Shown piece after piece: positions 20,576-64,000 of a stretch of DNA of 64,000 bases. The notes below the pieces were generated by a model that was not told the origin of the DNA, did not search any database, and worked only from the letters and a program-made list of their open reading frames with translations. The translations under genes and the position numbers were made by a program. The number at the start of each line of letters is the position of its first letter. Positions within the stretch are counted from its first letter, which is position 1. This stretch comes from Pontibacter rufus. GTDB taxonomy: Bacteria > Bacteroidota > Bacteroidia > Cytophagales > Hymenobacteraceae. The DNA lies in NCBI RefSeq assembly GCF_015694705.1, contig NZ_JADQDR010000006.1, positions 248,001-312,000 of the forward strand, read 5' to 3'.

Positions 20576-22540
20576 TTAATAGTTTAGCTTTACATCCGTA
20601 ATCTTTGTGGGTAACCAAACCTGCATCGGCGTTTTGCCGCGATTCGCCCACGAGTAGTAAGGAATGGCCGTTATAACACTTTTTGATGTACTGACTGCTA
20701 GTTTGTTATCCGATACATTTACCACTGGTACTTCCGCCTTCAGGGTTACCACGCCATTTAACAAATCTTTGTTATAGGCTGCTTCAAAAGTCGTGTTTTC
20801 GGGCAAAACAATATTCCAGGCCTCGTCATTGTTATCAACACCCTCCACACAATATACCAGTGGCCCTCTTTGCAAAGCTATCCTGTTGTTGTTGTACTCA
20901 AGGCTGTCTTTGGCGACAATCTTCTTTACCTCCATCGGAAGGTTAAGCTCTACCCGATCACCTTTTTTCCATTTCCTGTCTATAACGGCATACCCTTTGT
21001 CCATTTTATAGGGAACCTCCTTGCCGTTTAGCAGGACAGTGAATTTTGTTGGTTCGGGGTTGATGAAACGGTACAAATCACCAGGAACAGGTTGCCCCTG
21101 CGCCCAACCGGGAATCCGCAGGTGTAGCGCAAATTTGGTTGCCGATTTTGGATTGAGGCTTAAATCCACTTTTCCTTCCCAGGGATAATTTGTCTTCATC
21201 ACAACAGGCACTTCTTTATCACCGATATCGAAAGTTGTTTCGCTTCCTACATACAGGTTCACCCACATACCTTTGTCTGACTGCGCATAAATATAATTTC
21301 CGAGTGAGGCGATGAGGCGGGATATGTTAGCCGGGCAGCAGGCTGTACCAAACCATTCGCTTCGCTGATTATTGCCAACAGAAGCAAGCGGGTTACCATA
21401 AAAGAACCTATCGCCGCTCAGCGACAGGCCATCTAGCGCACCGTTATATAAGCTTCTTTCCAGGATATCGGCATACTTGCTGTCTCCGGTCAGGGTATTC
21501 ATCCGCTGGTTCCAGAAAACCATACCTACCGAGGCACAGGTTTCACAATAGGCCTGTTGGTTTGGCAAATCATAATCCTTTGAAAAGCCCTCATTTCTAC
21601 CTGATGAGCCAATACCGCCTGTAATATACATGTTGCGGTAAACTACATCTTCCCATACATCTTTCATGGCATGGATATAGTCTTTATCGCCGGTAAGGGC
21701 TGCCACATCAGCAGCGCCGGTGTACATGTACATGGCCCGAACGGCATGGCCCGTAATCTGCTTCTGCTGTTTTACTGGCAATACATCCTGCGCATAAGCG
21801 GTATCCTTCCAGTCTGTCCAGGTATAGCCTTTTGCCAGTTGATGTCCGCGTTCTTCCAGCAGCCAGTCTGCCATCTTCAGATACTTCTTGTCTTTGGTTG
21901 TTTTATAGAGCTTCACCAAGGCAAGTTCCAGTTCCTGGTGACCTGTTACCCAATGCCTTTTACCGGGCCCGAACAAAGAAGCGAAATGATCTGCAAACTT
22001 AGTGGCAACGTCCAGCAGTTGCTTTTTACCCGTAGCATCGTAATAAGCAACGGCAGCCTCTATTAAATGTCCGCCATTGTAATCTTCGTGCATACTCATG
22101 TCCGTCCAGCGCTTCTCAGGGAACTGCAGGGTATAATAAGTATTAAGGTAGCCGTCCGGCTGCTGGGCCTTGGCAATGATAGAAATCCATTCGTCTGCTT
22201 TCTGCTCCATTTCCGGATCAGGCTTATTTTTCAGCGAATAAGCCATCGCCTCCAGTGCCTTGTATACATCCGAATCATCGTAGAAAATGCCTTCAAACTT
22301 GCCTTCCTTCAAGCCTGCCGTGATCTCGAAGTTCCGGATGCGGGGCGTTTTTACCTCTGTCTGCTCAATACAGACAGGCAATGTTACGGTTGCCACCTGA
22401 TTGATCCGAGGCTTCCAAAAGGAATCCGTAATCGTAACTTTCGAAAACTTAACGGGCTGTATTTCACTGATGTTTGATTGTGCCATGGCACCCGATAGCA
22501 TCAGCGACAAAGCTATGGCGAAGGTGTATTGCTTGTTCAT
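20576..22540 (-). CDS. GH127 family beta-L-arabinofuranosidase, secreted
   Basis: A retaining glycoside hydrolase that removes beta-L-arabinofuranosyl units, e.g. from arabinose-decorated hydroxyproline or pectic side chains. A signal peptide (1-20, ending GAMAQ) precedes an (alpha/alpha)6 barrel and C-terminal beta-sandwich domains. The zinc-thiolate active site of the family is complete: Glu333 and Cys335 in CETC, and Cys401-Cys402 in TACCPANISR, matching Glu338, Cys340, Cys417 and Cys418 of the Bifidobacterium enzyme HypBA1 (from memory). Length 654 fits the catalytic part only; a decayed C-terminal module follows the stop. A good promoter is at 22659-22686. It stands alone, 20 kb from the main glycan locus. 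Confidence 0.9.
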   Translation of the reverse strand: MNKQYTFAIALSLMLSGAMAQSNISEIQPVKFSKVTITDSFWKPRINQVATVTLPVCIEQTEVKTPRIRNFEITAGLKEGKFEGIFYDDSDVYKALEAMAYSLKNKPDPEMEQKADEWISIIAKAQQPDGYLNTYYTLQFPEKRWTDMSMHEDYNGGHLIEAAVAYYDATGKKQLLDVATKFADHFASLFGPGKRHWVTGHQELELALVKLYKTTKDKKYLKMADWLLEERGHQLAKGYTWTDWKDTAYAQDVLPVKQQKQITGHAVRAMYMYTGAADVAALTGDKDYIHAMKDVWEDVVYRNMYITGGIGSSGRNEGFSKDYDLPNQQAYCETCASVGMVFWNQRMNTLTGDSKYADILERSLYNGALDGLSLSGDRFFYGNPLASVGNNQRSEWFGTACCPANISRLIASLGNYIYAQSDKGMWVNLYVGSETTFDIGDKEVPVVMKTNYPWEGKVDLSLNPKSATKFALHLRIPGWAQGQPVPGDLYRFINPEPTKFTVLLNGKEVPYKMDKGYAVIDRKWKKGDRVELNLPMEVKKIVAKDSLEYNNNRIALQRGPLVYCVEGVDNNDEAWNIVLPENTTFEAAYNKDLLNGVVTLKAEVPVVNVSDNKLAVSTSKSVITAIPYYSWANRGKTPMQVWLPTKITDVKLNY

Positions 22541-22658
22541 ATTTGGAATGTCGGTAAATTAATTGGTGTAATGCCTGTTTCTAAGAATAACAGAAGAAAC
22601 TATCCGAAAGACAGCAGGGCAGCAAATAGAATCAACGATGTTGTGCAGGCCGGAACCC

Positions 22659-22686
22659 CAAATTTATGTTCCGGCAGGTTCATCAA
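22659..22686 (-). promoter_or_regulatory. Bacteroidota-type promoter of the GH127 gene
   Basis: On the minus strand TTG (complement of 22684-22686), 17 bases, then TAAATTTG (complement of 22659-22666), a full -7 match. Transcription would start about 110 bases before the ATG at 22540, leaving a long untranslated leader. Confidence 0.55.
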
Positions 22687-22946
22687 GCCGTTGCGCGTTT
22701 AAAAGCTATTTAATACTGTCAATTCTATAATTGATCAAATAGAAACGTTCAACACGCAACACAAACCTATCCTATAATAAGTTGCTAGTATTACATTATT
22801 TCACCCATTGCTGACACTATACTACCAACTCTCTGCTTTTCGCCGCATGTCTCAACACCATTCTATTCATAACCCTGTAAATTGCCGGGCAGCGGGAGTT
22901 GCCGCCACAAATCTCTCCTATGACCTGATTTTCCTCATTTGTTTCT
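22687..22946. other. intergenic region, no gene seen
   Basis: With 22541-22686 this makes a 406-base gap. Apart from the promoter at 22659-22686 nothing firm is visible; no terminator hairpin for the NSS transporter unit was found. Confidence 0.35.
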
Positions 22947-23114: not shown

Positions 23115-24776
23115 TTAGATTTTCCCTTCTCTCACTCTTTTCTTATAAGCCACATACACCAGCAGCGCAATGCTCAGGAACACGGTAATGAGCAGCACAC
23201 GCGAGGCATTCACATAAAAGAGCGTGTTCTGCAGCCTTTCTACTTCTGCCGGGTTCACTGCCGCAATGGCATCAGCCAGCTCTTTCTTCAAACTGCTGTT
23301 CATCATCTTCTTGATAATAGAGCTGTCGTCCAGTACCCAGTTGCCGGCAAGTGCTGCTCCCCAGTCGCCTCCCTTCGGCGTTACCAGCGAACCGACAAAT
23401 ACCCACAGCAGCAGCAAGGGCGTAATGAACTTGATGATGAACTTGTAAATACCAGGCACTTTGATGTCAGAGCCCGAGGTTATCTCGCGCCAGCCTTTCT
23501 TCATGCCAAACACCCACGCAAAGAGGATAGACTCAAACAGGGCAAAGACTACCAGCGAGACGGTACCCGCCCAGTAGTCATACTCATCAAACACGCCATA
23601 CTTGAAGAAGAGCACTGTCGGCATGCCCAGCACAAACACGATGATACCGAAAGACCAGGCGGAAGCTTTGCGGCCCCAGTTGAACTCGTCCTGCAGGAAG
23701 CCCATCCAGGGGGTGCCCATGGCCAGCGAAGAAGTGATGCCGGCAAAGAAGAGCAGGCCAAACCACATCACCCCTGAAATGGCACCCAGCACATCTCCCC
23801 ACTGGAAGAACAGGTACGGCAGCGTTTTAAAGGCAAGTCCCAGGCCACCCAGCTGCACCAGTTCCGTTACCCGTTCAATACCCAGGTAGCCGATGGAGAT
23901 GGGGATGAGGATGGCCGCGCCGAGCACCACTTCCACAAACTCGTTCATCCAGCCGGCAGACATGGCATTCAGGGCAATGTCGTCTTTGGAGCGCACGTAA
24001 GAAGCGTAGCAATGTATTGTTCCCATCCCCACAGCAAGCGTGAAAAATATTTGTCCGGCAGCAGCCAGCCACACGCTCGGTGACCAGAGCTGCTCGTAAT
24101 TAGGTGTCCACAGATAGTTCAGGCCAACAGAGCTGTCGTTGATGGCTCCGTCCACACCAGCTGTGATGGTCACCCCTTTGTAGGCCAGGAACATGCCGAA
24201 GAGGATGAGCAGGGGCATGCCTACTTTTGCCACGCGCTCTACGCCACCCGAAAGCCCTTGTGAGAGAATGAAGGTGTTGAGCAGCAGGCAGAGCACATAG
24301 AACACGATTGGCTCCAGCGGAATGCCTAAAGTAGACTTGCCGATGCTGATGTAGGAGTTGAAGAAAGCAGCTACTGCATCCTGGTCCATGCCTTCGAAAG
24401 TGCCCACAACAGAGTGCAGCATGTAAGAGAGTGTCCAGGACTCAATGTAGCAGTAGTATGCAGCTATGGCAATGTTGGTCCAGATGCCAAACACACCAAT
24501 GTACTTCCAGAGGCGGTTCTTGTGCATGGTATCCATGATGAAAGGCGTGGAGTGATGCCCGAACTTACCGCCAAAGCGCCCCATCGACCATTCAACCCAC
24601 AGGAGTGGTATCCCAATCAGGAGCAGGCAAACCAGGTATGGTATAATAAACGCACCGCCGCCGTTCTGCACAGCCTGCACCGGAAATCGCAAAAAGTTTC
24701 CGAGCCCCACCGCGTTACCGGCCATGGCTAATACAAGACCCACACGCGAGCCCCAGGATTCTTTGTTAGCGCTCAT
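23115..24776 (-). CDS. sodium-dependent NSS/SNF-family amino acid transporter
   Basis: A secondary transporter of the neurotransmitter:sodium symporter family, 553 residues with about 12 hydrophobic segments. The N-terminal family signature is clear: WGSRVGLVLAMAGNAVGLGNFLRFP, which carries the sodium and substrate binding unwound part of helix 1. Helix 6 appears as LGLAFKTLPYLFFQWG. Bacterial members import amino acids (leucine, tryptophan, methionine, others) with sodium. The ligand is not readable; proline, hydroxyproline or small peptide-derived amino acids would suit the peptidase-rich surroundings but this is inference. It forms a two-gene unit with the small MetS-like protein. Confidence 0.92.
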   Translation of the reverse strand: MSANKESWGSRVGLVLAMAGNAVGLGNFLRFPVQAVQNGGGAFIIPYLVCLLLIGIPLLWVEWSMGRFGGKFGHHSTPFIMDTMHKNRLWKYIGVFGIWTNIAIAAYYCYIESWTLSYMLHSVVGTFEGMDQDAVAAFFNSYISIGKSTLGIPLEPIVFYVLCLLLNTFILSQGLSGGVERVAKVGMPLLILFGMFLAYKGVTITAGVDGAINDSSVGLNYLWTPNYEQLWSPSVWLAAAGQIFFTLAVGMGTIHCYASYVRSKDDIALNAMSAGWMNEFVEVVLGAAILIPISIGYLGIERVTELVQLGGLGLAFKTLPYLFFQWGDVLGAISGVMWFGLLFFAGITSSLAMGTPWMGFLQDEFNWGRKASAWSFGIIVFVLGMPTVLFFKYGVFDEYDYWAGTVSLVVFALFESILFAWVFGMKKGWREITSGSDIKVPGIYKFIIKFITPLLLLWVFVGSLVTPKGGDWGAALAGNWVLDDSSIIKKMMNSSLKKELADAIAAVNPAEVERLQNTLFYVNASRVLLITVFLSIALLVYVAYKKRVREGKI

Positions 24777-24851: not shown

Positions 24852-25778
24852 CTAATGAGTTGATGGACGGAGGTTAAGCCCGTAATAAACATCTGCCGGA
24901 ATGTGGTGCCCCTGATAAACACGTGCTAAAATGCTGTAGAGCGCTGGGTCGTATGCCTTCAAATCATCAGGTGACTGCACGCGGGTTTGTCCGTCATAAT
25001 ATTCGATATTTGACCAGAACCACCATTGGGTACCTTCAGCCCAATACTCGGCGACAGTGTTGATGGCATACTGGCCTTTATAGAGCCCTTTGGACTTAGC
25101 CGCTTCATAAGCAGCGCCGATCTCTTTGTAGAGTGCAGGGTCTGCTGTACGTAGCGCACCCATAATGTTGTGGCTGAACTCATGCACAAGGATGTTCTCG
25201 CCGTAATAGCGGGTGCCCGGATAACCCAGCAAGTTCTCTTCAGCGCAGGAAGTTACAAGGCCTCCCATACCTCGTGCCCGCTTGTTCCAGTACTCCTGGT
25301 CAGACATGCTGGCAATGCCTCCGGGTTTATCATAGTTTTCGCGCTCTCCCGGTGTAAGTCTCCGATCATCCTTCTCAGGCTTTTTCCAGTCGCGCCGCTC
25401 GGGCAGATCAGTTTCCATTTCTGTCTGCGCCATAACAAGCACACGGGCTCCACGTTTAATCAAATCCTCCCGGACATCCATACGCTTCACCAGCATGTAG
25501 TTCACGATATCGCGGGCTACCAACAGCGCTGTGCCGGGTACTTTATCAGATGACACCACCGGAATGCCAAAGGCGTCAGCATATTTTTTATAAAAAGGAT
25601 CGAGACCAAGCGAGGGGGGCGGTACGGTAACCATTGCCTGCTCATAATCCGACAGAAGGGCCTTACCTGGTTGAGATGGTTCCGCCTTATGGGCCATGTC
25701 AGGCTGAGGCTTAGTGGCAGAGCATGAAATCAACAATATCGCCATAAAATAAATGGTGAGCATTTGTGCTAATTTCAT
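24852..25778 (-). CDS. lipoprotein with HExxH metallopeptidase-like motif, unassigned
   Basis: I do not recognise a named family with certainty. The N-terminus is a lipoprotein signal (LLISCSATK, Cys19). The mature part carries HEFSH in ILVHEFSHNIMG (about residues 198-202), the zinc motif of gluzincins, and about 45 residues later AEYWAEGTQWWFW, whose Glu could be the third zinc ligand. A bulky tryptophan/tyrosine-rich stretch follows. Together these suggest a surface or periplasmic zinc hydrolase, perhaps a peptidase, but substrate and fold are unknown. It is a single gene between an NSS transporter and an M1 peptidase. It could instead be a non-enzymatic relative that has kept the motif. 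Confidence 0.65.
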   Translation of the reverse strand: MKLAQMLTIYFMAILLISCSATKPQPDMAHKAEPSQPGKALLSDYEQAMVTVPPPSLGLDPFYKKYADAFGIPVVSSDKVPGTALLVARDIVNYMLVKRMDVREDLIKRGARVLVMAQTEMETDLPERRDWKKPEKDDRRLTPGERENYDKPGGIASMSDQEYWNKRARGMGGLVTSCAEENLLGYPGTRYYGENILVHEFSHNIMGALRTADPALYKEIGAAYEAAKSKGLYKGQYAINTVAEYWAEGTQWWFWSNIEYYDGQTRVQSPDDLKAYDPALYSILARVYQGHHIPADVYYGLNLRPSTH

Positions 25779-25947: not shown

Positions 25948-27612
25948 CTACTGACCAGCTGCGTTAGAGGCATTTACATAAAAATTAGGGTCCACTTTCA
26001 GAGTAGTATTTGTTTTAACCCCATTGAGCTCCTGCCAGTCCGTAGTAGGTGTCAGCCATTTTTCTTTACCGTCCAGGTATACTTTTACAGGTATGCTGAA
26101 TCCATCTACACTATTACCCCATTTATACTTTAGCTTGTTACCTGATATCTGGTACACTAATTCCGGAATTCTTACATCGCGCAAATACTGATCAAAAAAC
26201 GCGGAAAGATCACGGCCTACATGCTTGCTAAGGTAATTCTCGATTTGTGCTGTGGTAACAGTCTGATGATAAAAGTCACGGTTGAGTCCCCTGAGAATGT
26301 CGCGCCATTTCTGGTCATCGTTTACAACCTGCCGTAATGTGTGCAGCATGTTGCCGCCTTTCGGATACATATCGCCGGAACCCTTGTCATTTACATTATA
26401 CTTACCGATAATCGGTTTGTCGTTATGAATTCCTTTGCGGGTTCCGATTACGTAGGCGTTACCAGCTTCCTTGCCATAGTAGTATTCTACAAAAAGGCTT
26501 TCTGCGTAGTTTGTAAAGCTTTCATGTATCCACATGTCCGCCATGTCTTTGTAAGTGATGTTGTTAGCAAACCACTCATGGCCTGATTCATGGATAATAA
26601 TGAAATCAAATTTCATCCCCCAGCCGGTGCCGCTCGCGTCTTTTCCTCTATAGCCATTTTTATACCCATTGCCATACGTAACGGCGCTTTGATGCTCCAT
26701 ACCTGTGTAGGGCACTTCTATAAGCTTGTAACCATCCTCATAAAAAGGATAAGGGCCGAACCAGTGCTCAAAAGCACGGAGCATGCGGGGAGCATCCTTG
26801 AATTGTTCTTTTGCTTTTTCCAGGTTTTCCTTCAGTACGTAGTAATTACAATCTAAAGTACCCTTCTCGCCTTTATACTTTTCTGAAAAATGTGCGTAAT
26901 CGCCAATGCTGATGTTTACGCCATAGTTATTGATGGGATTGGACACAAACCAGTGGAACGTCTTTGTGCCGTCGCTGTTCTGGTCTACTTTGCGGAGGCG
27001 CCCGTTAGAAACATCCATCAGTTTTTCGGGTACGGTTACGCTAATCAGCATACTATCCACCTCGTCATACATGTGGTCTTTGCAGGGCCACCACAGGCTG
27101 GCGCCATCTCCCTGATTTGAGTTAGCGATGAACGGATTTCCGTTGCTGTCTTTCTTCCAGGTTAATCCTCCGGCCCAGGGCGGGTTTTTGCTTACGACAG
27201 GCTTGCCACCGTAATGCACATCAACTTCATGTATGTCACCTGTTTTCTGGCTTTCTTTCAGTTGTATAAAATAAGCGTTTCCGTCTCTTCTGAAGGCTAA
27301 CTCACTGCCTTTCTGTACTACCTTATCAATATGCATGGGGGGCTGCAGGTCTATCTGCATCAGCTGGCCGGGTTTCAGCACTTTATACTGTATGGTATTT
27401 ACGCCCTGAATGGTACTATCAGCCGGATCTACCCGAACGTTTAAATGATAATAGGTAAGATCCCACCAGGCCCGCTCATCAGTTATAGAACCCCGCAAAG
27501 TATCCTGATGCGTGAATACAGGACTTTGCGCATAGAGGGTAATACTGCAGGCTAACAGCACGGGAATGAAACACAACCTGCGCATAAATTTTACAGGAAA
27601 TCTGTACTGCAT
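25948..27612 (-). CDS. secreted M1-family aminopeptidase
   Basis: A zinc aminopeptidase that removes N-terminal residues from peptides. A signal peptide (about 1-29, ending TLYAQ) precedes the beta-saddle domain and the thermolysin-like catalytic domain. The substrate-binding motif appears as GMEHQ (304-308, family usual GAMEN), and the zinc site as HESGH (341-345) with the third ligand Glu364 in WIHESFTNYAE. Length 554 shows it lacks the C-terminal helical domain of large M1 enzymes, as is common in Bacteroidota. It is ended by the hairpin at 25866-25886. It is part of a run of peptidases lying beside the hydroxyproline genes. Confidence 0.92.
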   Translation of the reverse strand: MQYRFPVKFMRRLCFIPVLLACSITLYAQSPVFTHQDTLRGSITDERAWWDLTYYHLNVRVDPADSTIQGVNTIQYKVLKPGQLMQIDLQPPMHIDKVVQKGSELAFRRDGNAYFIQLKESQKTGDIHEVDVHYGGKPVVSKNPPWAGGLTWKKDSNGNPFIANSNQGDGASLWWPCKDHMYDEVDSMLISVTVPEKLMDVSNGRLRKVDQNSDGTKTFHWFVSNPINNYGVNISIGDYAHFSEKYKGEKGTLDCNYYVLKENLEKAKEQFKDAPRMLRAFEHWFGPYPFYEDGYKLIEVPYTGMEHQSAVTYGNGYKNGYRGKDASGTGWGMKFDFIIIHESGHEWFANNITYKDMADMWIHESFTNYAESLFVEYYYGKEAGNAYVIGTRKGIHNDKPIIGKYNVNDKGSGDMYPKGGNMLHTLRQVVNDDQKWRDILRGLNRDFYHQTVTTAQIENYLSKHVGRDLSAFFDQYLRDVRIPELVYQISGNKLKYKWGNSVDGFSIPVKVYLDGKEKWLTPTTDWQELNGVKTNTTLKVDPNFYVNASNAAGQ

Positions 27613-28066
27613 TTGTTTATAGTTTATCTGGATTCCTCATCTGAATTCTTAAAGCGGAATAAAACTGTTCACTTCATCATGTTTTATACCTTCTTTTTCC
27701 GGGTAGCAGCTTCGGGGCGGATACAGTTTTGCCGTAAGTATCTTCTATAAGCTGTAATAATAATCGTCAATTTAACAGCTATACTTTGGATAATGCAAGC
27801 TAAATGCAAGAAACAATTTGTTGTTATCCAGAATTAGCTAAATGTAATACGATATGATCTATCCTGAGATCCGGTAAGTTCAATCAGCCCGGCGTATCAA
27901 TACATTCCGGTGGGGCAAAATAGAAGAGATAAATGATTGGATTGCAGAGGTATAGATACCGTTCTATACGGTTACCTATATAGCCAGGTATAAACTTATG
28001 CACCCTGCACATAATACCGGGAGTATATGTTGGAGAAGCTGCGTATGCAATACCTGCAGCGGCGCT
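27613..28066. other. intergenic region, no gene seen
   Basis: About 450 AT-rich bases between the M24 peptidase stop and the M1 peptidase start. No hairpin, exact promoter match or coding sequence was found on either strand. Confidence 0.4.
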
Positions 28067-29458
28067 TTAGCGTTGTTCTCTGAAAGCTTCTATGCCTTCT
28101 ATCATCTTTGGTAAATCCTTTCCTAACAATTGGCTGCCTTGCGCCGTAATCAGGAAATCTTCTTCAATCCGGATGCCTCCAAAAGATTTGTATGCGCTGA
28201 GTTTATCATAGTTAATAAACTGTTCGAACTTCTTGTTTGCTGCCCATAAGTCAATCAGTTCAGGTATAAAGTACAGCCCCGGCTCTACCGTAAGTACAAA
28301 ACCCGGTTCCAGTGCCCGCGCCAGCCGTAACGACTTTAAACCAAATTGCGTGCTTTTCTTTATATCATCAGTATAGCCGACGTATTCTTCCCCAAGGTCT
28401 TCCATGTCATGCGTATCGAGGCCCAGCATATGCCCTAAGCCACAGGGAAAGAATAACGCATGCGCGCCCTGCGCCACTGCTTCTTTGATATCCCCTTTCA
28501 TCAGCCCGACCTGTTTAAGCCCTTCCGCTAATTTTTCGCAGGCCCACAAATGAATATCCCTGTACAGCTTTCCGGGTTCAAGTTTATTTGCAGCCGCCCG
28601 ATGCGCTCCTAAAACAATTTCGTAGATTTCCCTTTGCTGGTCAGTAAACCTGGTATCTACCGGAAAAGTACGCGTAAGATCGCCGGCATAATGCATGGCA
28701 GATTCTGCCCCGCAATCGCACAGTACCATTTGCCCTTCGCCAAGTATAGCACTGCCAAAATGATTATGAAGTATCTGCCCGTTTACGGTTAAGATGATAG
28801 GAAACGCAAGATTGCCGCCAGAACTTACAGCTACTGCCTGCAGCATTCCGGCTACATTTGCTTCTGTCATTCCCTGCCTGGCTGCCCGAATAGCAGTCAG
28901 CTGCATATCGGCCGTTACATTGATTGCTTTCTCAATTTCAGCAACCTCTTCAGCAGATTTTATAGATCGGAGAGCGACTATCGCTTTAATCAGGGTTACA
29001 GAGGCCATACTACTTACAGTAGCCGGTGCAATACTCAACCAGGCACTTAATTTTAATATGTTTTCCGGCCGGTATGGCGGTAAAAAATGAATCTGACGGC
29101 CTTGTTCATGTGCACTTTTAAGTATAAGCTCTATTGCTTTCTGTGCCCTGATAGTATTGATGCCCGACTTTTCTGCCTGCTCCTGCAGCGGAACCTGCGT
29201 ACCAACCCACACAATCTCTTCTACTGAAACATCATCGCCACAGATGACCTCTGTACCACTGTCAACATCAATTATGCCAGCCAATCCAGGGCGATCAAGA
29301 CCAAAGAAGTATAGGAAGGAACTATCCTGCCGGAAACTGTACCAGTTATCTTTATAGCTCATGCTGCTCTCCTCATTCCCGAGCAGCAAAATTATTCCAC
29401 TTCCTACACGCTCCTTTAACTGATGCCTTCTGCGGATATAAACTTCTCTTGGGAACAT
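28067..29458 (-). CDS. M24-family Xaa-Pro aminopeptidase (PepP-like)
   Basis: A dinuclear metallopeptidase cutting the bond between an N-terminal residue and proline, also on Pro/Hyp-rich peptides. No signal peptide, so it is cytoplasmic. The N-terminal creatinase-like domain starts FPREVYIRRRHQL (about 1-130). The pita-bread catalytic domain shows the five ligands: Asp248 (CDCGAES), Asp260 (GDLTRTFPV), His343 (GHMLGLDTHDME), Glu392 (TVEPGLYF) and the Glu pair at 432-433 (GIRIEEDFL). Length 463 fits PepP. It acts downstream of dipeptidyl peptidases in breaking proline-rich peptides and lies on the same strand as the cupin, S9, DUF885 and hydroxyproline genes. Confidence 0.94.
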   Translation of the reverse strand: MFPREVYIRRRHQLKERVGSGIILLLGNEESSMSYKDNWYSFRQDSSFLYFFGLDRPGLAGIIDVDSGTEVICGDDVSVEEIVWVGTQVPLQEQAEKSGINTIRAQKAIELILKSAHEQGRQIHFLPPYRPENILKLSAWLSIAPATVSSMASVTLIKAIVALRSIKSAEEVAEIEKAINVTADMQLTAIRAARQGMTEANVAGMLQAVAVSSGGNLAFPIILTVNGQILHNHFGSAILGEGQMVLCDCGAESAMHYAGDLTRTFPVDTRFTDQQREIYEIVLGAHRAAANKLEPGKLYRDIHLWACEKLAEGLKQVGLMKGDIKEAVAQGAHALFFPCGLGHMLGLDTHDMEDLGEEYVGYTDDIKKSTQFGLKSLRLARALEPGFVLTVEPGLYFIPELIDLWAANKKFEQFINYDKLSAYKSFGGIRIEEDFLITAQGSQLLGKDLPKMIEGIEAFREQR

Positions 29459-30021: not shown

Positions 30022-32238
30022 TTACCGGCCTCCCGGTGGGCAGTATTGTTTCAGGTAATTGGTGTATAAAGTTGAAAGGTGTTCGCTGGTGCCCTCGCCT
30101 TCTGAAATACTATGCGTACGGTTGGGATAAGGCATTATCTGGAACTGCTTGTTATACTTTATCAATTCATTAACAAGCTGCGCTGCATTGTTATAATGTA
30201 CGTTGTCGTCGCCGGTGCCGTGAATGTACAGCAAGTTTCCTTTCAGGTTCCTGGCGTGGGTTATAGGTGAGCCTTTTACAAAATCTTCAAGGTTTTCCTG
30301 TGGCAGCCCCATGTAGCGCTCCTGGTAAATATTGTCGTATGTCAGTTGGTTGGCTACCGCAGCTATGGCTATACCTGTTTTGTAAATTCCGGGGTACTGG
30401 AAAAGCAGGTTCAGGGTAGCAGAACCGCCGCCGCTCCATCCCCATACAGCCACCCGGCTTGTATCCACATAAGGTAATTTCAGAATTTCCTGCGCTGCCT
30501 GCGCCTGATCGCTTATGTTCAGCATCCCTACTTTGCGGTAAATGCTTTTACGCCAGGCGCGGCCTTTCGGGGCGGGTGTCCCCCTGTTATCAACCGACAC
30601 GTAGAGGTAACCATCATCGGCCATACTGCCTTTGTACAAGCGGTTGCTGCCTGCGCCATAACTGTCTATTACCGTCTGCCCTGCCGGCTCGGTGTATACC
30701 TGGAAAACAACAGGATACTTTTTTGTAGAATCAAAAGCGGTTGGTTTCACCATCCAGGCATCCATCTCTACGCCTTCGCTGGTCTTGATTTTAAAGAAAG
30801 TAACAGGAACGTCTGATTTGTTTGATTGGGCCAAAGCGCTTTCAACTGCACTGTTACCATCCAGCGCTTTGTGGTTGGGCAGCGATATCCAGTCCGAAGC
30901 AGGCTTGGTATAGTAATTTGAAAAACGATGGAAGGCGAACTCACCATTAGGAGACAGCATGTAGGCGTGTGTGCCCGCCTGTGCTGCCGGCGACAGACGC
31001 TCTGGCTTTCCTTTGCCATTAATGCGCGTCCGGTAAAGGTATTGCTGTGTTGCATTGTCTGGCGAGGCCATAAAGTATACGTAGCCATCCGCTTCATCTA
31101 CAACCACAATCTCCATCACATCATAGTTACCTTTGGTGATAAGGCTTTCTTTTTTGCCATCGCGGCTGCGCCTGTATAAATGGCGCCAGCCGTCTTTTTC
31201 GCTAGCCCACAAAAACTCCTTGCCGTTGTTTAACCAATCCCAGCCGCCAAAGCTATACTTGCTGTCCCAGGTAGGCAGGATATCAATCCAGGCTTCATCT
31301 TTCTCAGTATAAATCTGCTTTGCCTGGCCACTGGCAATGTTGCAGAGGTACAGCTTGCTTTCATTCTGCTTACGGTTTAGTTGCTGCAGGATCAGTTCAT
31401 CCGGGTTGGCGGCCCATTCCATACGGGGAACGTAGTGCTGCCGCGGGTCGCCGGGCACATCCATCCATGTTGTTTTTACCGTGGCTACATCTGCCACTCC
31501 AATTTTGTAAGGAGACAGTGCTTCGCCAGCGACAGGGTATTCTACGGGCAACACGCCAGGGTATATGGAATCTGTAAGGTTAACCAGCAGGTAATCTTTC
31601 ACATCTGTGGCATCAATCTGCCAGAAGGCGATCTTCTTGCTGTCGGGGCTCCACCGGAAACCATCGCGGCAGTAAAACTCTTCTTCATAAGCCCAGTCGA
31701 AGGTGCCGTTTATCCGCTTTCTGGTTCCGTCTTTTGTCAGCTGCGTTACTTTTTTAGTTGAAAGGTCCTCGGTATAGATATTGTTTTCACTCACATAAGC
31801 CACCTGCTTGCCGTCGGGCGAGAATTTGGCAAACATCAGCGACGAGGCAGGACGCTCCGTGCCTAACTGCTCCAGTGTCTGGTTTTGTAAGTCATATACC
31901 CAGTAATCACCTCTGGTATCGAGCCGCCATACTTTAACGGTATTGGTATAAAGTAACAGCTTCTGCTCGTCCGCTGAAAATGCAAAACTTCGCACTTTCA
32001 GCGGTTCTGTTTTGCCTGCAGGTACGAGTTTTTCTTTCGCAAGTATAATCTGCTTGCTTCTGGCCGGCAAAGTATACTTTACAATATCACCGCCCTCCTG
32101 CTGTGCATAAGCGTTGCCTGATTTTAACCAATAAACCGCCCCTCTGCTTTGTGCAATGCCTGCAAAGGAACAAAGCACCAGATACAGTGAAAGCAACAGA
32201 AACCATAGTGGCTTTAAGGTCTTCAGAGGTTTGTTCAT
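30022..32238 (-). CDS. secreted S9B (DPP-IV-like) dipeptidyl peptidase
   Basis: A serine peptidase of the prolyl oligopeptidase clan, expected to release X-Pro or X-Ala dipeptides from peptide N-termini in the periplasm. A signal peptide (about 1-29, ending GIAQ) is followed by an eight-bladed beta-propeller (DPPIV_N), with the YEEEFYCRDGFRWSPD region holding the double-Glu motif that grips the free N-terminus. The alpha/beta-hydrolase domain has GWSGGG (Ser602), the acid in GDDNVH (677-678) and His709 in RTHSIS. Length 738 is normal. It lies 40 bases after the DUF885 gene, so the two probably share a transcript. A second enzyme of this type is encoded at 40056-42383. Confidence 0.94.
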   Translation of the reverse strand: MNKPLKTLKPLWFLLLSLYLVLCSFAGIAQSRGAVYWLKSGNAYAQQEGGDIVKYTLPARSKQIILAKEKLVPAGKTEPLKVRSFAFSADEQKLLLYTNTVKVWRLDTRGDYWVYDLQNQTLEQLGTERPASSLMFAKFSPDGKQVAYVSENNIYTEDLSTKKVTQLTKDGTRKRINGTFDWAYEEEFYCRDGFRWSPDSKKIAFWQIDATDVKDYLLVNLTDSIYPGVLPVEYPVAGEALSPYKIGVADVATVKTTWMDVPGDPRQHYVPRMEWAANPDELILQQLNRKQNESKLYLCNIASGQAKQIYTEKDEAWIDILPTWDSKYSFGGWDWLNNGKEFLWASEKDGWRHLYRRSRDGKKESLITKGNYDVMEIVVVDEADGYVYFMASPDNATQQYLYRTRINGKGKPERLSPAAQAGTHAYMLSPNGEFAFHRFSNYYTKPASDWISLPNHKALDGNSAVESALAQSNKSDVPVTFFKIKTSEGVEMDAWMVKPTAFDSTKKYPVVFQVYTEPAGQTVIDSYGAGSNRLYKGSMADDGYLYVSVDNRGTPAPKGRAWRKSIYRKVGMLNISDQAQAAQEILKLPYVDTSRVAVWGWSGGGSATLNLLFQYPGIYKTGIAIAAVANQLTYDNIYQERYMGLPQENLEDFVKGSPITHARNLKGNLLYIHGTGDDNVHYNNAAQLVNELIKYNKQFQIMPYPNRTHSISEGEGTSEHLSTLYTNYLKQYCPPGGR

Positions 32239-32278: not shown

Positions 32279-34024
32279 TTATTTAGCGTAAAATCTCCAG
32301 CTTGTTTTATAATCTTCCGGCAGGTCCTGGTCTGTAAGTATAGCCCGCACCATTTCTACAGGCAGGTTGTTCTGGTGCATTACAGCATCATGGTATTGCT
32401 TGTATGTCATTTTGCCGCTATCTACCAGCTCTTTCTTAAGCGCATCAAACTGCAGGCCGCCCATCATGTAAGCTACCTGGTACAGCGGGCTGTAACGCCC
32501 TTCAAAAGAGCGACGTACTTCACCCGCGGCATTGGCACGCTCATGCCCTACCCGGTCTACCAGAAAATCGATGCATTGCTGCGGCGTCCATTTACCAAGG
32601 TGATAATTGAGTGAAAAGATAATGCGGGCACAGCGGTGCATTCGCCAGAAGAGCATGCCGACTTTATCTTCAGGCGATTGGGGAAATCCCTGATCCCAAA
32701 GCAGCATCTCCCAGTACAAAGACCAGCCTTCGGTCCAGAAAGGAGTATCGAAGTTGCGGTATACTTTGTAGCGGTTGTTCATGAAGCCCTGCAAATGGTG
32801 GCCTGCTATTAGTTCATGGTGCACGGTAGCGCGCGAAAAATGAGGATTGTTGCCCCGCATGCTCATCAGCTTATCTTCCTGAGACATGGAGCTGGTGGGA
32901 TATGAAATGCTAAAAACCTCGCCTCCTGTAAAGAACGGGTTAACCAGCTGGCGTTCGGGCGTCATCATTTCCATCCGCCAGGTTTCCTCCGCCAGTGGCG
33001 GTATGGTAATCAAATCTTTCTTTTTTATAAAATCTACTGACTCGTTATACAACTTCAGCATGGCTTCGGGCTGCTCTCCGGCCGGTACATAAGTGTTTTT
33101 TACCTTTTCCAAAGCCTTGTGCCAATCGTTACCAAAGCCCATCTCCTGCGACGCCTTCAGCATTTCCTTATCGCACCAGGCAAATTCCTTGTTGGCAATG
33201 TCAATCAGCTCTTCCGGCGTATAAGGAATCATTTCATACTGTAACTGCCTGATAAGCTCTTCCTTACCTATAGGGCTACCTACAATGCCACTTGCATCGG
33301 GTTTCTGGTTCTTGCCCAGTACATTTCCCTTTTTCTCTGCCAGCGTAGCATAGGCGGTCAGCAGGCTGTCTACCCGTTTATAGGGCGACGGCACCCACCA
33401 GGTAAATCCGGGGTCATAGTCGTAGTAGAAAGTATAAACACTTTTAAGGCCTTCCTGTAGATCTTTGATGGTGTTTTGTAAACGATACGCCAGGTTTCTG
33501 TCTAACGACGCTTCTTTTTGCAGTGCAGTTGTAGCAGCCTGCAGGCTTTTCCCGATAGCATTCAGCTCAGTGGCCACCTGCTGCCCGTTAACTGTATGAC
33601 CACGCCTGCGGGGTATCTCCAGCGCATAAATCTTATCCGCAAACGGTAGCCATTTCTTTATTTGGTTTGATTCCTGCGATGCGATGCCGAGCAGGCGCAG
33701 TTTATTTTCTAAATCCCGCTTCGTTAACAGGTAGTCTACCCGGCTACCTGTATTCATACTTTCAAAGTTCAGTTTATCCAGTTCCTGCAGGTAATTGTTA
33801 TAGAGTAGCTGAAAGCGTGCGATATACTCCGGTGAGTTTCTCATGAAGTAGAAGCGGTTCAGGCTTCCCTCATCCGCACGCAGCTTCACCATCAGGTTAT
33901 TGACATCACTTGTTTGCAGGTATAAAGAGCTGCTATCCTGTGCCAGAACGGCTTTGGGAACGACAGGTGAAAGGAGCAACAAGAGTAAAGAAAACTTCAG
34001 AATACAAAAGTCCGGTCGTTTCAT
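32279..34024 (-). CDS. secreted DUF885 protein, probable metallopeptidase
   Basis: A protein of the DUF885 family, 581 residues, with an N-terminal signal (about 1-28, ending AVLAQ). The family motif HHELIAGHHLQ is present in the second half (about residue 395), a HExxxGH zinc-binding pattern typical of DUF885 and suggestive of peptidase activity. The RNSPEYIARFQ opening and the repeated helical segments are also family-like. It is mostly uncharacterised; some relatives are annotated as dipeptidases. It lies between the hydroxyproline operon (153-base gap upstream) and the S9 peptidase (40-base gap downstream), which supports a role in peptide breakdown. Confidence 0.88.
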   Translation of the reverse strand: MKRPDFCILKFSLLLLLLSPVVPKAVLAQDSSSLYLQTSDVNNLMVKLRADEGSLNRFYFMRNSPEYIARFQLLYNNYLQELDKLNFESMNTGSRVDYLLTKRDLENKLRLLGIASQESNQIKKWLPFADKIYALEIPRRRGHTVNGQQVATELNAIGKSLQAATTALQKEASLDRNLAYRLQNTIKDLQEGLKSVYTFYYDYDPGFTWWVPSPYKRVDSLLTAYATLAEKKGNVLGKNQKPDASGIVGSPIGKEELIRQLQYEMIPYTPEELIDIANKEFAWCDKEMLKASQEMGFGNDWHKALEKVKNTYVPAGEQPEAMLKLYNESVDFIKKKDLITIPPLAEETWRMEMMTPERQLVNPFFTGGEVFSISYPTSSMSQEDKLMSMRGNNPHFSRATVHHELIAGHHLQGFMNNRYKVYRNFDTPFWTEGWSLYWEMLLWDQGFPQSPEDKVGMLFWRMHRCARIIFSLNYHLGKWTPQQCIDFLVDRVGHERANAAGEVRRSFEGRYSPLYQVAYMMGGLQFDALKKELVDSGKMTYKQYHDAVMHQNNLPVEMVRAILTDQDLPEDYKTSWRFYAK

Positions 34025-34177: not shown

Positions 34178-35425
34178 CTAGCTATATCTGTCCGGAGAGA
34201 AGGCTTCTATTAAGACCGGCGCTTTCCTGTTCATCAGTTGCTCTGCCAGAATCTTTCCGGTGGCCGGCGCTAAACTGATGCCCATCATACTATGCCCCGT
34301 TCCAAACAGTACATTGTCCCAGCGCTGCGTAAATCCGATGTAGGGCAAGCCATCCGGCGAGCAGGGCCGCAGGCCGCTCCATATATTCTTGGCATCAGGC
34401 ATGGGACATTGAAAATCACTATAGTACCTGGAAATGGCGTTATGAATGCCCTTTACGCGGTTGATATTTTTTTTCTGATTGTCGTCCGTAATCTCCATGG
34501 TGCCACCAAAGCGCACTTCTTTGCCGAAAGGTGTTACGGCTACTTTTCCTTCTACAAGTATGGCCGGGCGCTGAATAGCCGGGGAATTTTCTGCCAGGAA
34601 GCTATAACCTTTTCCACCCAGCATTGGCATGTTTATTTGCAGTTTTCTGGCTATCTGTCCAGACGCGGAGCCGGCAGCGATAATAACATAATCGCCGGCA
34701 TAGTCTCCTTTATCAGTTATAACAGCGTTAACCGTGCGGCCAGTGCAGGCAAAATCAAGCACTTCGGCATTCCGTATAATTTTAACGCCCTTGCTTTCCA
34801 GTTGCTTCACCAGGAAATGATTTAACTTGGCAGGGTTCAAATGGGCATCACCCGGGAAAAATACGCCACCCAACACGTCCATACCTGCGTATGGCTCCAG
34901 TTTCTGCACATCCTCCTGCGACAACACCTCTGTTACAAGGCCATGCTGGCTGGCAAGATGGGCAAACTCAATTTCTTCCTGGGCGGCCTCCTCGGTTTTA
35001 TAAAGCATCAGAAGGCCTTTCTCCTCCAGGCCCAGATCAGCGGCAACATGTTGTTCTGCCAGGCTCAGATAAAGGCTTTTGCTGAACAGGCTAAGGCCTT
35101 TAAGGTAAGGAATACTATAAGCTACATGCTTTTTGGTAGCAGACTGATAGAAGAGCAGGCACCATTGCAAAAGCCTCCTGTCTAATTTAGGATGTATATA
35201 AAAGGGGCTGGTGGATGAAAACATCCACTTGAGTCCTTTTCCTATTATGCCGGGCGACGCGAGTGGCACAATATGGCTGGGAACGATCATGCCTGCGTTT
35301 CCGATGGAGCAGTTGGCCGACAAGTCTCCTTTATCCAGTATGGTTACTTCAAAGCCCTCTTCCGATAAATAGTATGCAGTAAATAAACCAATAATACCGC
35401 CTCCGGCTATTACAACTTTGCTCAT
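34178..35425 (-). CDS. FAD-dependent D-amino acid dehydrogenase, probable D-hydroxyproline dehydrogenase
   Basis: A DadA-like flavoprotein that would oxidise cis-4-hydroxy-D-proline to 1-pyrroline-4-hydroxy-2-carboxylate, step two of hydroxyproline catabolism. The dinucleotide-binding motif GGGIIGLFTAYYL (about 7-19) opens the protein, and the ending SGLRPCSPDGLPYIG and GTGHSMMGISLAPATG is typical of DadA/glycine-oxidase enzymes. Length 415 is normal. It starts one base after the stop of the epimerase gene, so the two are translationally coupled. It is the last gene of a four-gene operon. Specificity for hydroxyproline is inferred from the operon, as D-proline or other D-amino acids are possible. 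Confidence 0.9.
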   Translation of the reverse strand: MSKVVIAGGGIIGLFTAYYLSEEGFEVTILDKGDLSANCSIGNAGMIVPSHIVPLASPGIIGKGLKWMFSSTSPFYIHPKLDRRLLQWCLLFYQSATKKHVAYSIPYLKGLSLFSKSLYLSLAEQHVAADLGLEEKGLLMLYKTEEAAQEEIEFAHLASQHGLVTEVLSQEDVQKLEPYAGMDVLGGVFFPGDAHLNPAKLNHFLVKQLESKGVKIIRNAEVLDFACTGRTVNAVITDKGDYAGDYVIIAAGSASGQIARKLQINMPMLGGKGYSFLAENSPAIQRPAILVEGKVAVTPFGKEVRFGGTMEITDDNQKKNINRVKGIHNAISRYYSDFQCPMPDAKNIWSGLRPCSPDGLPYIGFTQRWDNVLFGTGHSMMGISLAPATGKILAEQLMNRKAPVLIEAFSPDRYS

Positions 35426-35426
35426 A

Positions 35427-36428
35427 TTATATCACCTGAAATCCGTGTACATAAGGGTCTGCTTCATCCAGAAATATCGAATTTAGGCCGGTTACAATGG
35501 CCCAGCCTTCAATACCTGGTAATATAGCCGGTTTACCTGCTACCGTTGTTTCTCCCTCAATAGTGCCTTTAAAAATGGAGCCGATGTAGCTTTCGTGTAT
35601 AAACTCCTGCCCTGGTTTTAGCAGGCCTTTGGTATACCACTGGGCCATCCGGGCTGAAGTGCCTGTGCCGCACGGAGAACGATCAATGGCTTTATCGCCA
35701 TAAAAAACAGCATTACGCGCCGTAGAAGTTGGCTGTAGCGTATCGCCTGCCCAGAGGATGTGTGAAAGCCCGCTTATAGTAGGATTCTCCGGGTGCACGA
35801 AGGTGTACTTCCTGTTCATCCTTTCCCGTATCACCCGGCTCCAGGCAATCAACTTATCAGCAGTAAATTCCTGTAGGCCCGGGAAATTCTCCTGGGGATC
35901 GATAATGCCGTAAAAATTGCCACCGTAAGCCACGTCCAGTTTTAGCTCTCCCAATTCCGGACATTCAACCGTTAAATTTTCGGCTTCCAGGTAGGAAGCC
36001 ACATTGGTAAGTTTTACTGTTTTTACCTTGTTCCCCTCCTGGGTGTAGCTTACTTTCACCAACCCTGCAGGTGTTTCCAGGCGCAGCTGACCGGGTACTT
36101 TAGGCGTGATTAATCCCTCCTCTAATGCAATGGTAACGGTTCCGATCGTACCATGCCCGCACATGGGCAGGCATCCGCTGGTTTCAATGTAAAGCACCGC
36201 TATGTCGTTTTCAGGATCGTGCGGCGGGTAGAGTATACTTCCCGACATCATATCGTGGCCACGCGGCTCAAACATCAGCCCTTTCCTTATCCAATCATAC
36301 TCCCGCAAAAAGTGCTGCCGCTTTTCACTCATGTTTGCTCCCTGCAATATCGGGCCGCCGCCTGCTACCAGCCGGACGGGGTTGCCACAAGTATGGGCAT
36401 CGATGCAGAAAAATGTTTTCCTTGCCAT
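35427..36428 (-). CDS. 4-hydroxyproline 2-epimerase (proline racemase family)
   Basis: Converts trans-4-hydroxy-L-proline to cis-4-hydroxy-D-proline in the cytoplasm. The frame runs upstream to an ATG at 36575, but that would overlap the aldehyde dehydrogenase gene by 137 bases; the ATG at 36428 gives the family start (FFCIDAHTCGNPVRLV) and lies 10 bases after the previous stop. Both catalytic cysteines are present, Cys90 in MCGHGTIG and Cys253 in SPCGTGTSA. This marks an epimerase/racemase, not a 3-hydroxyproline dehydratase in which one Cys is Thr. The resulting 333 residues are the family size. It is the third gene of the operon. Confidence 0.92.
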   Translation of the reverse strand: MARKTFFCIDAHTCGNPVRLVAGGGPILQGANMSEKRQHFLREYDWIRKGLMFEPRGHDMMSGSILYPPHDPENDIAVLYIETSGCLPMCGHGTIGTVTIALEEGLITPKVPGQLRLETPAGLVKVSYTQEGNKVKTVKLTNVASYLEAENLTVECPELGELKLDVAYGGNFYGIIDPQENFPGLQEFTADKLIAWSRVIRERMNRKYTFVHPENPTISGLSHILWAGDTLQPTSTARNAVFYGDKAIDRSPCGTGTSARMAQWYTKGLLKPGQEFIHESYIGSIFKGTIEGETTVAGKPAILPGIEGWAIVTGLNSIFLDEADPYVHGFQVI

Positions 36429-51064: not shown

Positions 51065-51096
51065 TTAGCTTACCTAATTGTAATAGTATATTAACA
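51065..51096. promoter_or_regulatory. AT-rich element shared with two other upstream regions (copy 3)
   Basis: TTAGCT (51065-51070), CCTAAT and AATAGTATATTAACA (51082-51096) repeat, with a small internal insertion, the elements at 47748-47774. It lies about 75-105 bases before the GH127 ATG, where an activator site would be expected. Confidence 0.45.
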
Positions 51097-59501: not shown

Positions 59502-59526
59502 TTTCGCTATTTTATAACAGTAGTGA

Positions 59527-62481: not shown

Positions 62482-63236
62482 AGGTTATTATTGGTTTTGG
62501 TTAGTTGATTTTTCAGTAGTAGTGAGTTTAGAATGCTGATTGGTTTGCCTTTAAATGCTTTGCCATAGTATAGAATTACCTTATTTATAAAAGCCCTGTT
62601 TAAAGGTCCTGCCCATCCAGAATGGTTAAGCTGCCGAAAGTAGTTTCCTGCTGCTTGTGTCAATTATACCGGCGGCAGTTTATCCGCCCGGCAGCTAACA
62701 GGCTGAAGTCTGTGCCTGTCGTCTGCGCCATACTTTCTTCTCAGCTCCAGCCACGCATATCTACAAAGAGATCTTATTCTTAAGGTTTGGACAGACTTAT
62801 CTGCTTTTTTAATAAAAAATCTGTAGCGCATGAGATCAGCCGCGCTGTAGAAATTGCAAAGCCGCTAAAAAGGGCCTTGCAATTTCTACAGCGCGGGCAA
62901 GTCACTACTTTTCTAAGTATAAATGAGTTGCTGTAAAAGTGAAGCTGGAGAAGCTTTAAGAGCAAAGCTATCGGCAAATAGCCTTAGACTGAGAACCTTG
63001 CCTTTCTGATCCCGGATTACAAAGGATGCCTCCTTGTCAGAGCTAAACAAGTATAACGCTCTTACTTAAGAAGCTTTCAGGGACTGGCCGGAGGAGTAAA
63101 TGCAGCAGAAGTATACGCTCAATTAACCAGGAGTTTGCCTGCGCTGTCTGAATGAAATGAAGCTGCTGTAGCAGAGAATAATATACCTTTGTTATAGTGA
63201 GAGATGTTTAACTGAATACGTCCTGACTGCTTATCT
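62482..63236. other. intergenic region upstream of SusC2 with a long hairpin
   Basis: About 755 bases between the partial GH43 stop and SusC2. No gene is supportable. The main structure is the perfect inverted repeat at 62840-62896. AAGTATA occurs at about 62918, 63051 and 63110. No exact -7/-33 promoter match was found upstream of SusC2. Confidence 0.5.
62840..62896. repeat. 20-bp inverted repeat (long hairpin)
   Basis: The arms 62840-62859 and 62877-62896 are perfectly complementary over 20 bases (core GTAGAAATTGCAA and its complement), with a 17-base middle part that can pair three more bases. It lies 340 bases after the GH43 stop and about 360 bases before SusC2. A run of six T follows 22 bases later on the minus strand, so a terminator is possible, but a regulatory RNA or mobile-repeat arm cannot be excluded. 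Confidence 0.6.
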
Positions 63237-64000
63237 TTAATCGTCTGATTCATTTTTCTGCATCAGCGTGTCCAATGTCCATTCTTCCTGCCATTTCAGA
63301 ACAGGTTTGCCGTCCTCAAAAATAAGGGGTAACCAGATATAGCGGCCGTCTATAGGGTTTTTCGGGCGCCATCTATCAGCCATAAAAATAAAGGCATTCT
63401 TCTTTCCCTGAACCGGAAGCACGAAGGTGCTTTGAGACGAGAAGGTAGTATTTTTTTCTTCTTCAGTTCCCCGAACAGGATTTCCGAGTTGCTTCCATCC
63501 CTCCATCATATGCTCACTTACTGCCGAGCGTGCCGCATTAGGTGCCCACCCCGTTAAACCTGAAGTTATCATGAAGTATTTACCGCCTTTTTTGAAAATA
63601 GCCGGGGCTTCATTTCTTCCTCCGGGGAATACACGAACATACTCATCCGTAAATCCTGTATAATCATCCGTCAGCTTGCTGATGTGAAGGGTCCTGTTTT
63701 CCTCAGACGCAGCAATATGATAGGCTGTACCGTCGTCGTCCACAAACAGCGTCATATCCCTGGACATTTGCCCGCCTTCAAAATCCCTTTGTAAAAGGGC
63801 ACCATCCGCCACCTTCTGTTCCCATGCCGGATCATTATCTTTAACTATAACAGGCACCGTTTTATGTGCCTCGGTGGCATTGGCAGGCCATACTCCGGCA
63901 TGCGGGCGGAAACTTTTCAGATAGGTATAGGGCCCTGTTACTTTGTCTGCAACGGCAACGGCTGTCCGGGCAGCATTATACCCCTGCCCTTTCAGCTCCA
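63237..64000 (-). CDS. GH43-family glycosidase, C-terminal part (5' end outside window)
   Basis: The frame is open to the window edge. Going backwards from the seen part, VWPANATEAHKTVPVIVKDN joins smoothly to the region after the GTG at 63857, so that codon is internal, not a start. GGQMSRDMTLFVDDDGTAYHI is the GH43 segment with an acidic residue pair, ENRTLHISKLTDDY and GRNEAPAIFKKGGKYFMITSGLTGWAPNAAR are strongly GH43-typical, with the acid Glu in NEAPAIF. The pattern recalls exo-beta-1,3-galactanases (subfamily 24), which fit arabinogalactan, but I cannot prove the subfamily. The last 40 residues complete the propeller. N-terminal domains and the signal lie beyond position 64000. Confidence 0.88.
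   Translation of the reverse strand, partial: ELKGQGYNAARTAVAVADKVTGPYTYLKSFRPHAGVWPANATEAHKTVPVIVKDNDPAWEQKVADGALLQRDFEGGQMSRDMTLFVDDDGTAYHIAASEENRTLHISKLTDDYTGFTDEYVRVFPGGRNEAPAIFKKGGKYFMITSGLTGWAPNAARSAVSEHMMEGWKQLGNPVRGTEEEKNTTFSSQSTFVLPVQGKKNAFIFMADRWRPKNPIDGRYIWLPLIFEDGKPVLKWQEEWTLDTLMQKNESDD

Follow-up and report, generated by a model that had tools for sequence, protein, structure and literature searches.

Do the glycosidase, peptidase and hydroxyproline (Hyp) catabolic genes that stand close together in the genome of Pontibacter rufus serve a single nutrient? The stretch that raises this question, here called the window, is 64,000 nucleotides long (G000:C18:248001-312000) and lies within a 5.0-Mb genome. 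An earlier note had read some 43 kb of it as one programme of deglycosylation, peptide trimming and Hyp catabolism. Linkage and a common operator argue for such a programme between 20.6 and 51.1 kb, but a second polysaccharide utilisation locus (PUL) that follows falls outside it. We put at about three in four the probability that the 20.6-51.1 kb region and a distal GH146-like gene on contig C16 constitute one AraC-controlled regulon through which a hydroxyproline-rich glycoprotein of plant (or algal) origin is used as a single nutrient. Within this reading, we are least sure of extensin as the main substrate.

All named genes of the window were verified by a Pfam scan of its main genes (Table 1). 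On the minus strand, read 5' to 3', the order begins with SusC2, SusD2, DUF2264, GH43, BNR_4, GH105, GH127b, SusC1, SusD1 and dipeptidyl peptidase IV (DPP-IV) b. After an AraC regulator gene on the plus strand come the DHDPS-type gene, ALDH, HypE (the 4-hydroxyproline 2-epimerase), the DAO-type gene, DUF885 and DPP-IV a, and finally M24, M1, a lipoprotein for which the Pfam scan gave no family, an SNF symporter and GH127a. The genes listed in the earlier note (two GH127, GH43, GH105, DUF2264, BNR and two SusCD pairs) are confirmed, as are its peptidases (two DPP-IV/S9, M24, M1, DUF885), the M24 protein possessing an aminopeptidase-P N-domain. That note did not name the SNF-family Na+ symporter, the AraC regulator and the lipoprotein, which harbors a HEFSH motif.

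The association of these genes with HypE recurs across the phylum. It was analyzed in 80 named loci, extending at most 10 kb on each side of HypE and representing the best 80 of at least 594 confirmed matches rather than a random draw, and in a phylum sample of 296 genomes. Among the latter, 61 possess a close HypE and 60 were counted, the window's own being left out; 40 random stretches from the same sample served as controls. One identical HypE occurs in both sets (L034/L253). According to clustering of open reading frames, GH127/146 genes are found within ~10 kb of HypE in 20/80 named and 7/60 sampled loci, as compared to 0/40 controls (Fisher 6e-4 for both sets together). The background amounts to 190 PF07944 matches in ~298 Mb, counted over those genomes that carry the first 50 named loci. 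These 50 loci contain 12 linked GH127/146 versus 0.58 expected (P=3e-13), and the 60 sampled genomes 7 versus 0.45 (P=2.6e-7). DPP-IV (17/80 and 12/60), DUF885 (29/80 and 13/60, 42/140 in all), M24 (9/80 and 7/60) and AraC (44/80 and 32/60, 76/140 in all) are likewise found near HypE, each being absent from the 40 controls. GH27, GH51, GH97, GH43, GH2 and DUF5695 are not significant there when taken one by one. The GH127/146 genes share the strand of HypE in 22 of 29 cases; in L080, L081, L021 and L112 a GH127 or GH146 gene stands beside HypE within the operon, in L080 between HypE and the DAO gene. On the HypE tree, the association is patchy: 28 of 136 rows are linked, which takes at least 18 changes, a count made without shuffle comparison. 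A search of genomes for co-occurrence of GH127, DPP-IV and Hyp epimerase genes, suggested with the initial proposal, thus shows that GH127/GH146, DPP-IV and Hyp genes are repeatedly linked. Chance adjacency of GH127 is rejected in view of a linkage far above expectation and of the 0/40 controls.

A common operator provides the second line of evidence. The intergenic stretch between the AraC and DHDPS-type genes harbors, in relatives and in the window, a conserved site made of two half-sites 21 bp apart. A matrix was derived from training loci of relatives only, the window being left out. It detects predicted AraC-type operators upstream of the Hyp operon, SusC1, GH127a, GH127b and, weakly, M1; the rest of the window scores at most 12.5, as compared to a maximum of 22.05 over 100 simulated windows. 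An IUPAC pattern designed to cover the four strong window sites matches, with up to three mismatches, five places in the window versus 0.02 expected. Its placement is near-exclusive: the whole genome contains six matches, the five window sites and C16:16646-16671, and the reversed pattern has none. The sixth site, which took no part in the making of pattern or matrix, scores 23.9, whereas 10 Mb of simulated sequence stays below 20. It is located ~235 nt upstream of an unlinked, long GH146-like gene on the same strand (C16:13305-16385), the product of which is 68% identical to that of L071 in a protein search.

In 14 relatives, a slightly widened pattern gives 33 matches distributed over 11 genomes, as compared to one for the reversed control. 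HypE is at most 28 kb away from 30 of the 33; the remaining matches, two in G116 and one in G163, are on other contigs. The pattern misses G147, G164 and G167, yet the matrix detects sites there. Beyond the family, 12 sites scoring 22 or more were detected by the matrix in nine further named loci, preceding HypD (L014, L068, L071, L076, L078, L081), DPP-IV (L060, L070, L071) or SusC (L060). In Flagellimonas (L081), which is outside the training, one site precedes HypD by 30 nt and another precedes a GH146-like gene by 38 nt. The site found in L013 is without a fitting gene, and the 40 control stretches contain no site at 20 or more. L002, L003 and L004 correspond to relatives G104, G129 and G147 and are hence not independent of the training. 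An AraC gene combined with a common direct-repeat site before several transcription units designates the region as a predicted AraC-family regulon, and the divergent AraC protein presumably binds this operator.

The arrangement in close relatives follows the same theme. In the Rufibacter-type genus (L135/136, L151-159), the order is SusC1-SusD1-(GH146)-GH127a-(SNF)-M1-DPP-IV b-[AraC], continued by DHDPS-ALDH-HypE-DAO-DUF885-DPP-IV a; M24 and a second GH127 follow. G052 and G123 exhibit shuffled versions of the locus; in G123 (L132), the AraC gene is divergent from GH146, with the operator between them. Among 26 HypE-bearing relatives of the family, 12 of which are each covered by a single 7-20 kb stretch, nine possess GH127/146 in the DNA covered. 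To note, in six Dyadobacter Hyp loci (L013, L017, L018, L025, L026, L030), a pair of DUF3857/transglutaminase-core proteins is encoded directly before the Hyp operon.

Within the Hyp operon, HypE scores 594.9 bits on the NCBIfam 4-hydroxyproline epimerase equivalog (cut-off 376), possesses the two cysteine motifs, and is 90 and 91% identical to the HypE of Rufibacter and Pontibacter records. The DAO, DHDPS and ALDH domains stand in operon order and recur near HypE, but none of them passes an NCBIfam model cut-off. The four-enzyme Hyp pathway proposed at the outset is therefore firm for the epimerase, the other three roles being assigned from domain type and operon position. A DapA function for the DHDPS-type gene is rejected on account of its score of 181.1, as compared to a DapA cut-off of 206.15 (NCBIfam).

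GH127a and GH127b are predicted members of the GH127/GH146 cysteine beta-L-arabinofuranosidase family, based on domain and catalytic residues. The nearest solved structures to GH127a are 4QJY and 6EX6, and it retains Glu317, E333xC335 and C401-C402; the active-site Glu, ExC and CC are kept in 31/31 sequences (GH127a, GH127b and 29 from HypE loci). Three glycosidase types are found near HypE: a GH127 like GH127a, a GH146-like type and a long GH146-like form in flavobacteria. The GH146-like type, in L024, matches 5OPJ (E=2.9e-158), which we take to be BT0349. The accessible text of PMC10850190 describes a zinc-cysteine active site in which Glu is the acid/base and ExC...CC bind zinc. It also describes GH146 enzymes, XeHypBA1 and Bll4HypBA1, that attack arabinofuranose bound to Hyp, and families GH127/146 that also cover enzymes for the beta-arabinofuranose of arabinan, arabinogalactan proteins (AGPs) and rhamnogalacturonan II (RG-II). 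Other glycosidases are encoded beside Hyp genes: GH27 in L008, L009, L011 and L019, GH97 in L012 and L153, and GH51 in L061 and in L028, there between a permease and HypE. A GH51 for terminal alpha-arabinose and a GH27 or GH97 for serine-linked galactose would suit other bonds of extensin, as these are given in the available parts of PMC7933510 and PMC7263609.

On the import side, SusC1 and SusD1 are 24 bp apart with GH127b upstream, an arrangement that qualifies as a SusCD-type utilisation locus. The solved relatives of SusC1 include sugar-type SusC homologues and RagA, and do not settle whether its cargo is peptide or sugar. The SNF symporter gene is preceded by its own predicted operator in L131 and L133. 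An AA_permease_2 amino-acid permease is found near HypE in 20/80 named and 4/60 sampled loci and in 0/40 controls (e.g. L036:12403-13812); it is a candidate Hyp importer where the SNF symporter is absent.

Two proteins belong to less documented families. Homologues of the HEFSH lipoprotein adjoin Hyp genes in L027, L131, L133 and L145. Its fold predicted from two sequences is too poor for use (mean pLDDT 44.2), and a profile search against solved structures returned two untrusted rows only (E 0.0088 and 0.16). DUF5695 (PF18951), for which Pfam gives no function, is found near Hyp genes in 10/140 loci and 0/40 controls, a difference that is not significant (e.g. L027:88-2886, L037:113-2875, L073:16791-19568, L075:13839-16589, L154:725-3535). 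With an alignment leaving out L047 (aligned at 23%), a profile search against solved structures gave nothing at E up to 0.1; the fold predicted from four sequences is again too poor (mean pLDDT 43.4). Searched by name in open-access full text, DUF5695 yields a single unrelated paper.

Table 1. Genes and predicted operators of the regulon region, with positions in the window.
Feature	Position	Strand	Basis and remarks
GH127a, beta-L-arabinofuranosidase-type enzyme	20576..22540	-	PF07944 E=3.9e-110; signal peptide by eye
Predicted operator, ~260 nt upstream of GH127a	22801..22826	-	matrix score 28.9; IUPAC pattern
SNF-family Na+ symporter, candidate amino-acid or peptide importer	23115..24776	-	PF00209; NCBIfam Na_transp above cut-off
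Lipoprotein, candidate zinc peptidase	24852..25778	-	HEFSH motif and conserved downstream Glu; role from motif
M1-family peptidase	25948..27612	-	PF01433
Weaker predicted operator, ~220 nt upstream of M1	27834..27859	-	3 mismatches; score 17.6
M24 aminopeptidase P-type (X-Pro) peptidase	28067..29458	-	PF00557 and PF05195; no signal peptide by eye
DPP-IV a (S9) peptidase	30022..32238	-	PF00930, PF00326
DUF885 protein, candidate peptidase	32279..34024	-	PF05960
DAO-type FAD oxidoreductase, candidate D-cis-hydroxyproline oxidase/dehydrogenase	34178..35425	-	PF01266; role by operon position
HypE, 4-hydroxyproline 2-epimerase	35427..36428	-	Pfam Pro_racemase; NCBIfam equivalog; conserved start 36428
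ALDH, candidate alpha-ketoglutaric semialdehyde dehydrogenase	36439..37893	-	PF00171; role by operon position
DHDPS-family protein, candidate HypD deaminase	37967..38902	-	PF00701
Predicted operator between Hyp operon and AraC	38994..39019	-	score 32.2
AraC-family regulator	39098..39985	+	PF12833; divergent from Hyp operon
DPP-IV b (S9) peptidase	40056..42383	-	PF00930, PF00326; without own operator here, unlike relatives
SusD1	42732..44318	-	PF07980, PF14322
SusC1, outer-membrane importer	44342..47341	-	PF07715, PF13715
Predicted operator, ~400 nt upstream of SusC1	47748..47773	-	score 32.1
GH127b, GH127 with long N-terminal extension	48280..50991	-	PF07944 E=7.4e-70; nearest solved 6EX6; active-site residues kept
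Predicted operator, ~80 nt upstream of GH127b	51070..51095	-	score 30.7

From these data, we infer the substrate, the enzyme specificities, the compartments (signal peptides being judged by eye) and the inducer as follows. Glycopeptides would pass through the outer membrane via SusC1/SusD1. GH127a, GH127b and the distal GH146-like enzyme would remove beta-L-arabinofuranose from Hyp, and M1, both DPP-IV enzymes, DUF885 and the HEFSH lipoprotein, acting as exported peptidases, would trim the X-Hyp/X-Pro chain. The products may be carried inward by the SNF symporter; in the cytoplasm, M24 would cleave X-Hyp/X-Pro. Conversion of trans-4-hydroxy-L-proline to alpha-ketoglutarate would then proceed through HypE, the DAO oxidoreductase, the DHDPS-type deaminase and ALDH. 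The AraC protein would bind the direct-repeat operator in response to Hyp or a derivative.

How far does the unit extend? From ~51.4 kb to the window end stands a different PUL (GH105, BNR_4, GH43, DUF2264, SusD2, SusC2; 51483-64000), continued past the end by a further GH43 (L082:738-1901). Its in-window GH43 exhibits a catalytic match at residues 452-741, and its BNR_4 protein matches 5MUK-type proteins (E=1.2e-153). We take the 5MUK-type family to be GH145 and DUF2264 to be GH154-type; GH145/GH105/GH43/GH154 with SusCD would presumably represent an AGP PUL of the B. thetaiotaomicron type, and the second PUL may serve AGP side chains. This content, together with the common strand, would fit a full 43-kb unit in which both parts serve one programme for AGPs. 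However, in the matrix scan the stretch from 51.1 kb to the end of the window is free of predicted operators, including the region before SusC2. Among the five relatives possessing both SusD2 and HypE, the two are ~326 kb apart in G077 and ~2.2 Mb in G164 and on different contigs in G163 and G116; in G058 alone they are as close as ~37 kb, SusD2 being on the other side. Furthermore, GH105- and BNR4-type genes are found in 0/140 HypE loci and DUF2264 in 1/140. The 43-kb extent claimed earlier, and with it the membership of GH105, GH43, DUF2264, BNR and the second SusCD pair, is not supported, given these missing operators, the SusD2 placement and the rarity or absence of GH105, BNR4 and DUF2264 at HypE loci; an AGP programme spanning both PULs is the least credible of the alternatives considered. 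GH127b, at the border, is assigned to the Hyp regulon because a Hyp-type site precedes it. As judged from the sequence data, the unit comprises ~20.6-51.1 kb plus the distal GH146-like gene on C16.

Even within these limits, several observations weigh against a glycoprotein regulon. No GH127/146 is nearby at 60/80 named and 53/60 sampled HypE loci, nor in the DNA covered for 17/26 family relatives, so Hyp catabolism is often used without such enzymes in its vicinity; many Pontibacter-type relatives have a Hyp operon accompanied by M1, DPP-IV or M24 only. Broad clusters of SusC (26/80, 8/60, control 5/40) and SusD (12/80, 3/60, control 3/40) show no enrichment around HypE. Taken alone, the M1 site is weak, its score lying below that of the best simulated window, and the zero mismatches of the four strong sites arise by construction, the pattern being written to fit them. 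Finally, sequence cannot tell GH127/146 specificity. The frequency of HypE loci lacking GH127/146 would suit a general scavenging of Hyp and proline peptides (collagen, gelatin, free Hyp), the GH127 genes then being bystanders. Against this stand the GH127/146 linkage far above expectation and the Hyp-type operators preceding both GH127 genes of the window and the distal GH146-like gene; moreover, collagen Hyp is not known to bear arabinose. We regard scavenging alone as improbable. The breadth of the GH127/146 families, which include the arabinan, AGP and RG-II enzymes mentioned above, leaves more room for co-regulation without a shared molecule: the regulator would sense plant material generally, GH127/146 would act on arabinan or pectin side chains, and Hyp would come from elsewhere. 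Yet all six genome-wide matches are accounted for by the locus and one GH146-like gene, so that the pattern marks no separate PUL for arabinan or pectin, and in four loci GH127 or GH146 stands beside HypE in the operon itself. Such co-regulation is unlikely, if a little less so than scavenging.

Outside these units, positions 9799-16593 of the window encode an efflux-type operon in which a TetR regulator accompanies two ABC ATPases, two ABC-2 membrane proteins and efflux proteins of the HlyD and outer-membrane types.

The proposed glycoprotein regulon can be compared to several described systems. The HypAA-HypBA2-HypBA1 system of Bifidobacterium longum likewise pairs a dedicated importer with a GH127 that acts on the beta-arabino-oligosaccharides carried by hydroxyproline-rich glycoproteins (PMC7263609). 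It takes the sugar only, via GH43, GH121, GH127 and an ABC importer, and the available text of that paper describes no peptidases or Hyp catabolism, whereas the present locus combines the Hyp pathway with SusCD and peptidases. Neither GH121 nor a sugar ABC importer is found among the Pfam-scanned window genes; from its gene content, the locus is taken to work partly like the B. longum system without being a member of it. Xanthomonas enzymes for this sugar are considered only as cited in PMC10850190. A study of the trans-4-hydroxy-L-proline pathway and its 4HypE neighbourhoods (PMC4113996) involves the same epimerase and amino-acid-catabolic neighbourhood, and reports peptidase families adjoining trans-3-hydroxyproline dehydratase in Bacilli; in a word search of its main text, glycosidases ('glycos' 0), Bacteroidetes and collagen are all absent. 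The SusCD PULs of Bacteroidota possess the same SusC1/SusD1-type pair, exported glycosidases and a local regulator. Unlike them, the present locus additionally encodes peptidases and a pathway to degrade the amino acid that bears the glycan, and its substrate would be a glycoprotein. The closest idea, use of hydroxyproline-rich glycoproteins (extensin, AGP) through GH127, was proposed for Latescibacteria (PMC4454575); as far as the accessible text goes, it relies on gene lists from single-cell genomes, without a locus, regulon or Hyp catabolic operon. In open-access full text, outside which most of the subscription literature lies, no locus or regulon joining glycosidase, peptidase and Hyp catabolism was found.

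On balance, though with less assurance than for the regulon itself, we favor the notion of a "glycoprotein utilisation locus", in which one regulator and operator unite import, deglycosylation, peptide cleavage and catabolism of the glycan-bearing amino acid. It would recruit glycosidases fitted to various linkages of the extensin glycan (GH127, GH146, GH51, GH97, GH27), to which DUF5695 and the HEFSH lipoprotein would probably add undescribed enzymes. Because the operator is common to the window's family and to flavobacteria, the regulon would, as part of the same notion, be old in Bacteroidota. The 26-bp operator allows detection of further members, the distal GH146-like gene having emerged in this way, and DUF5695 and the HEFSH lipoprotein are candidate extensin-acting enzymes of undescribed families. 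Among the components of the plant wall, extensins and related proteins are hard to digest, and the bacterial system described in the sources at hand takes their sugar only. If the proposal is true, sugar, peptide and Hyp would be consumed as one meal, making the fate of the whole glycoprotein testable, and the PUL idea would be widened from polysaccharides to whole glycoproteins.

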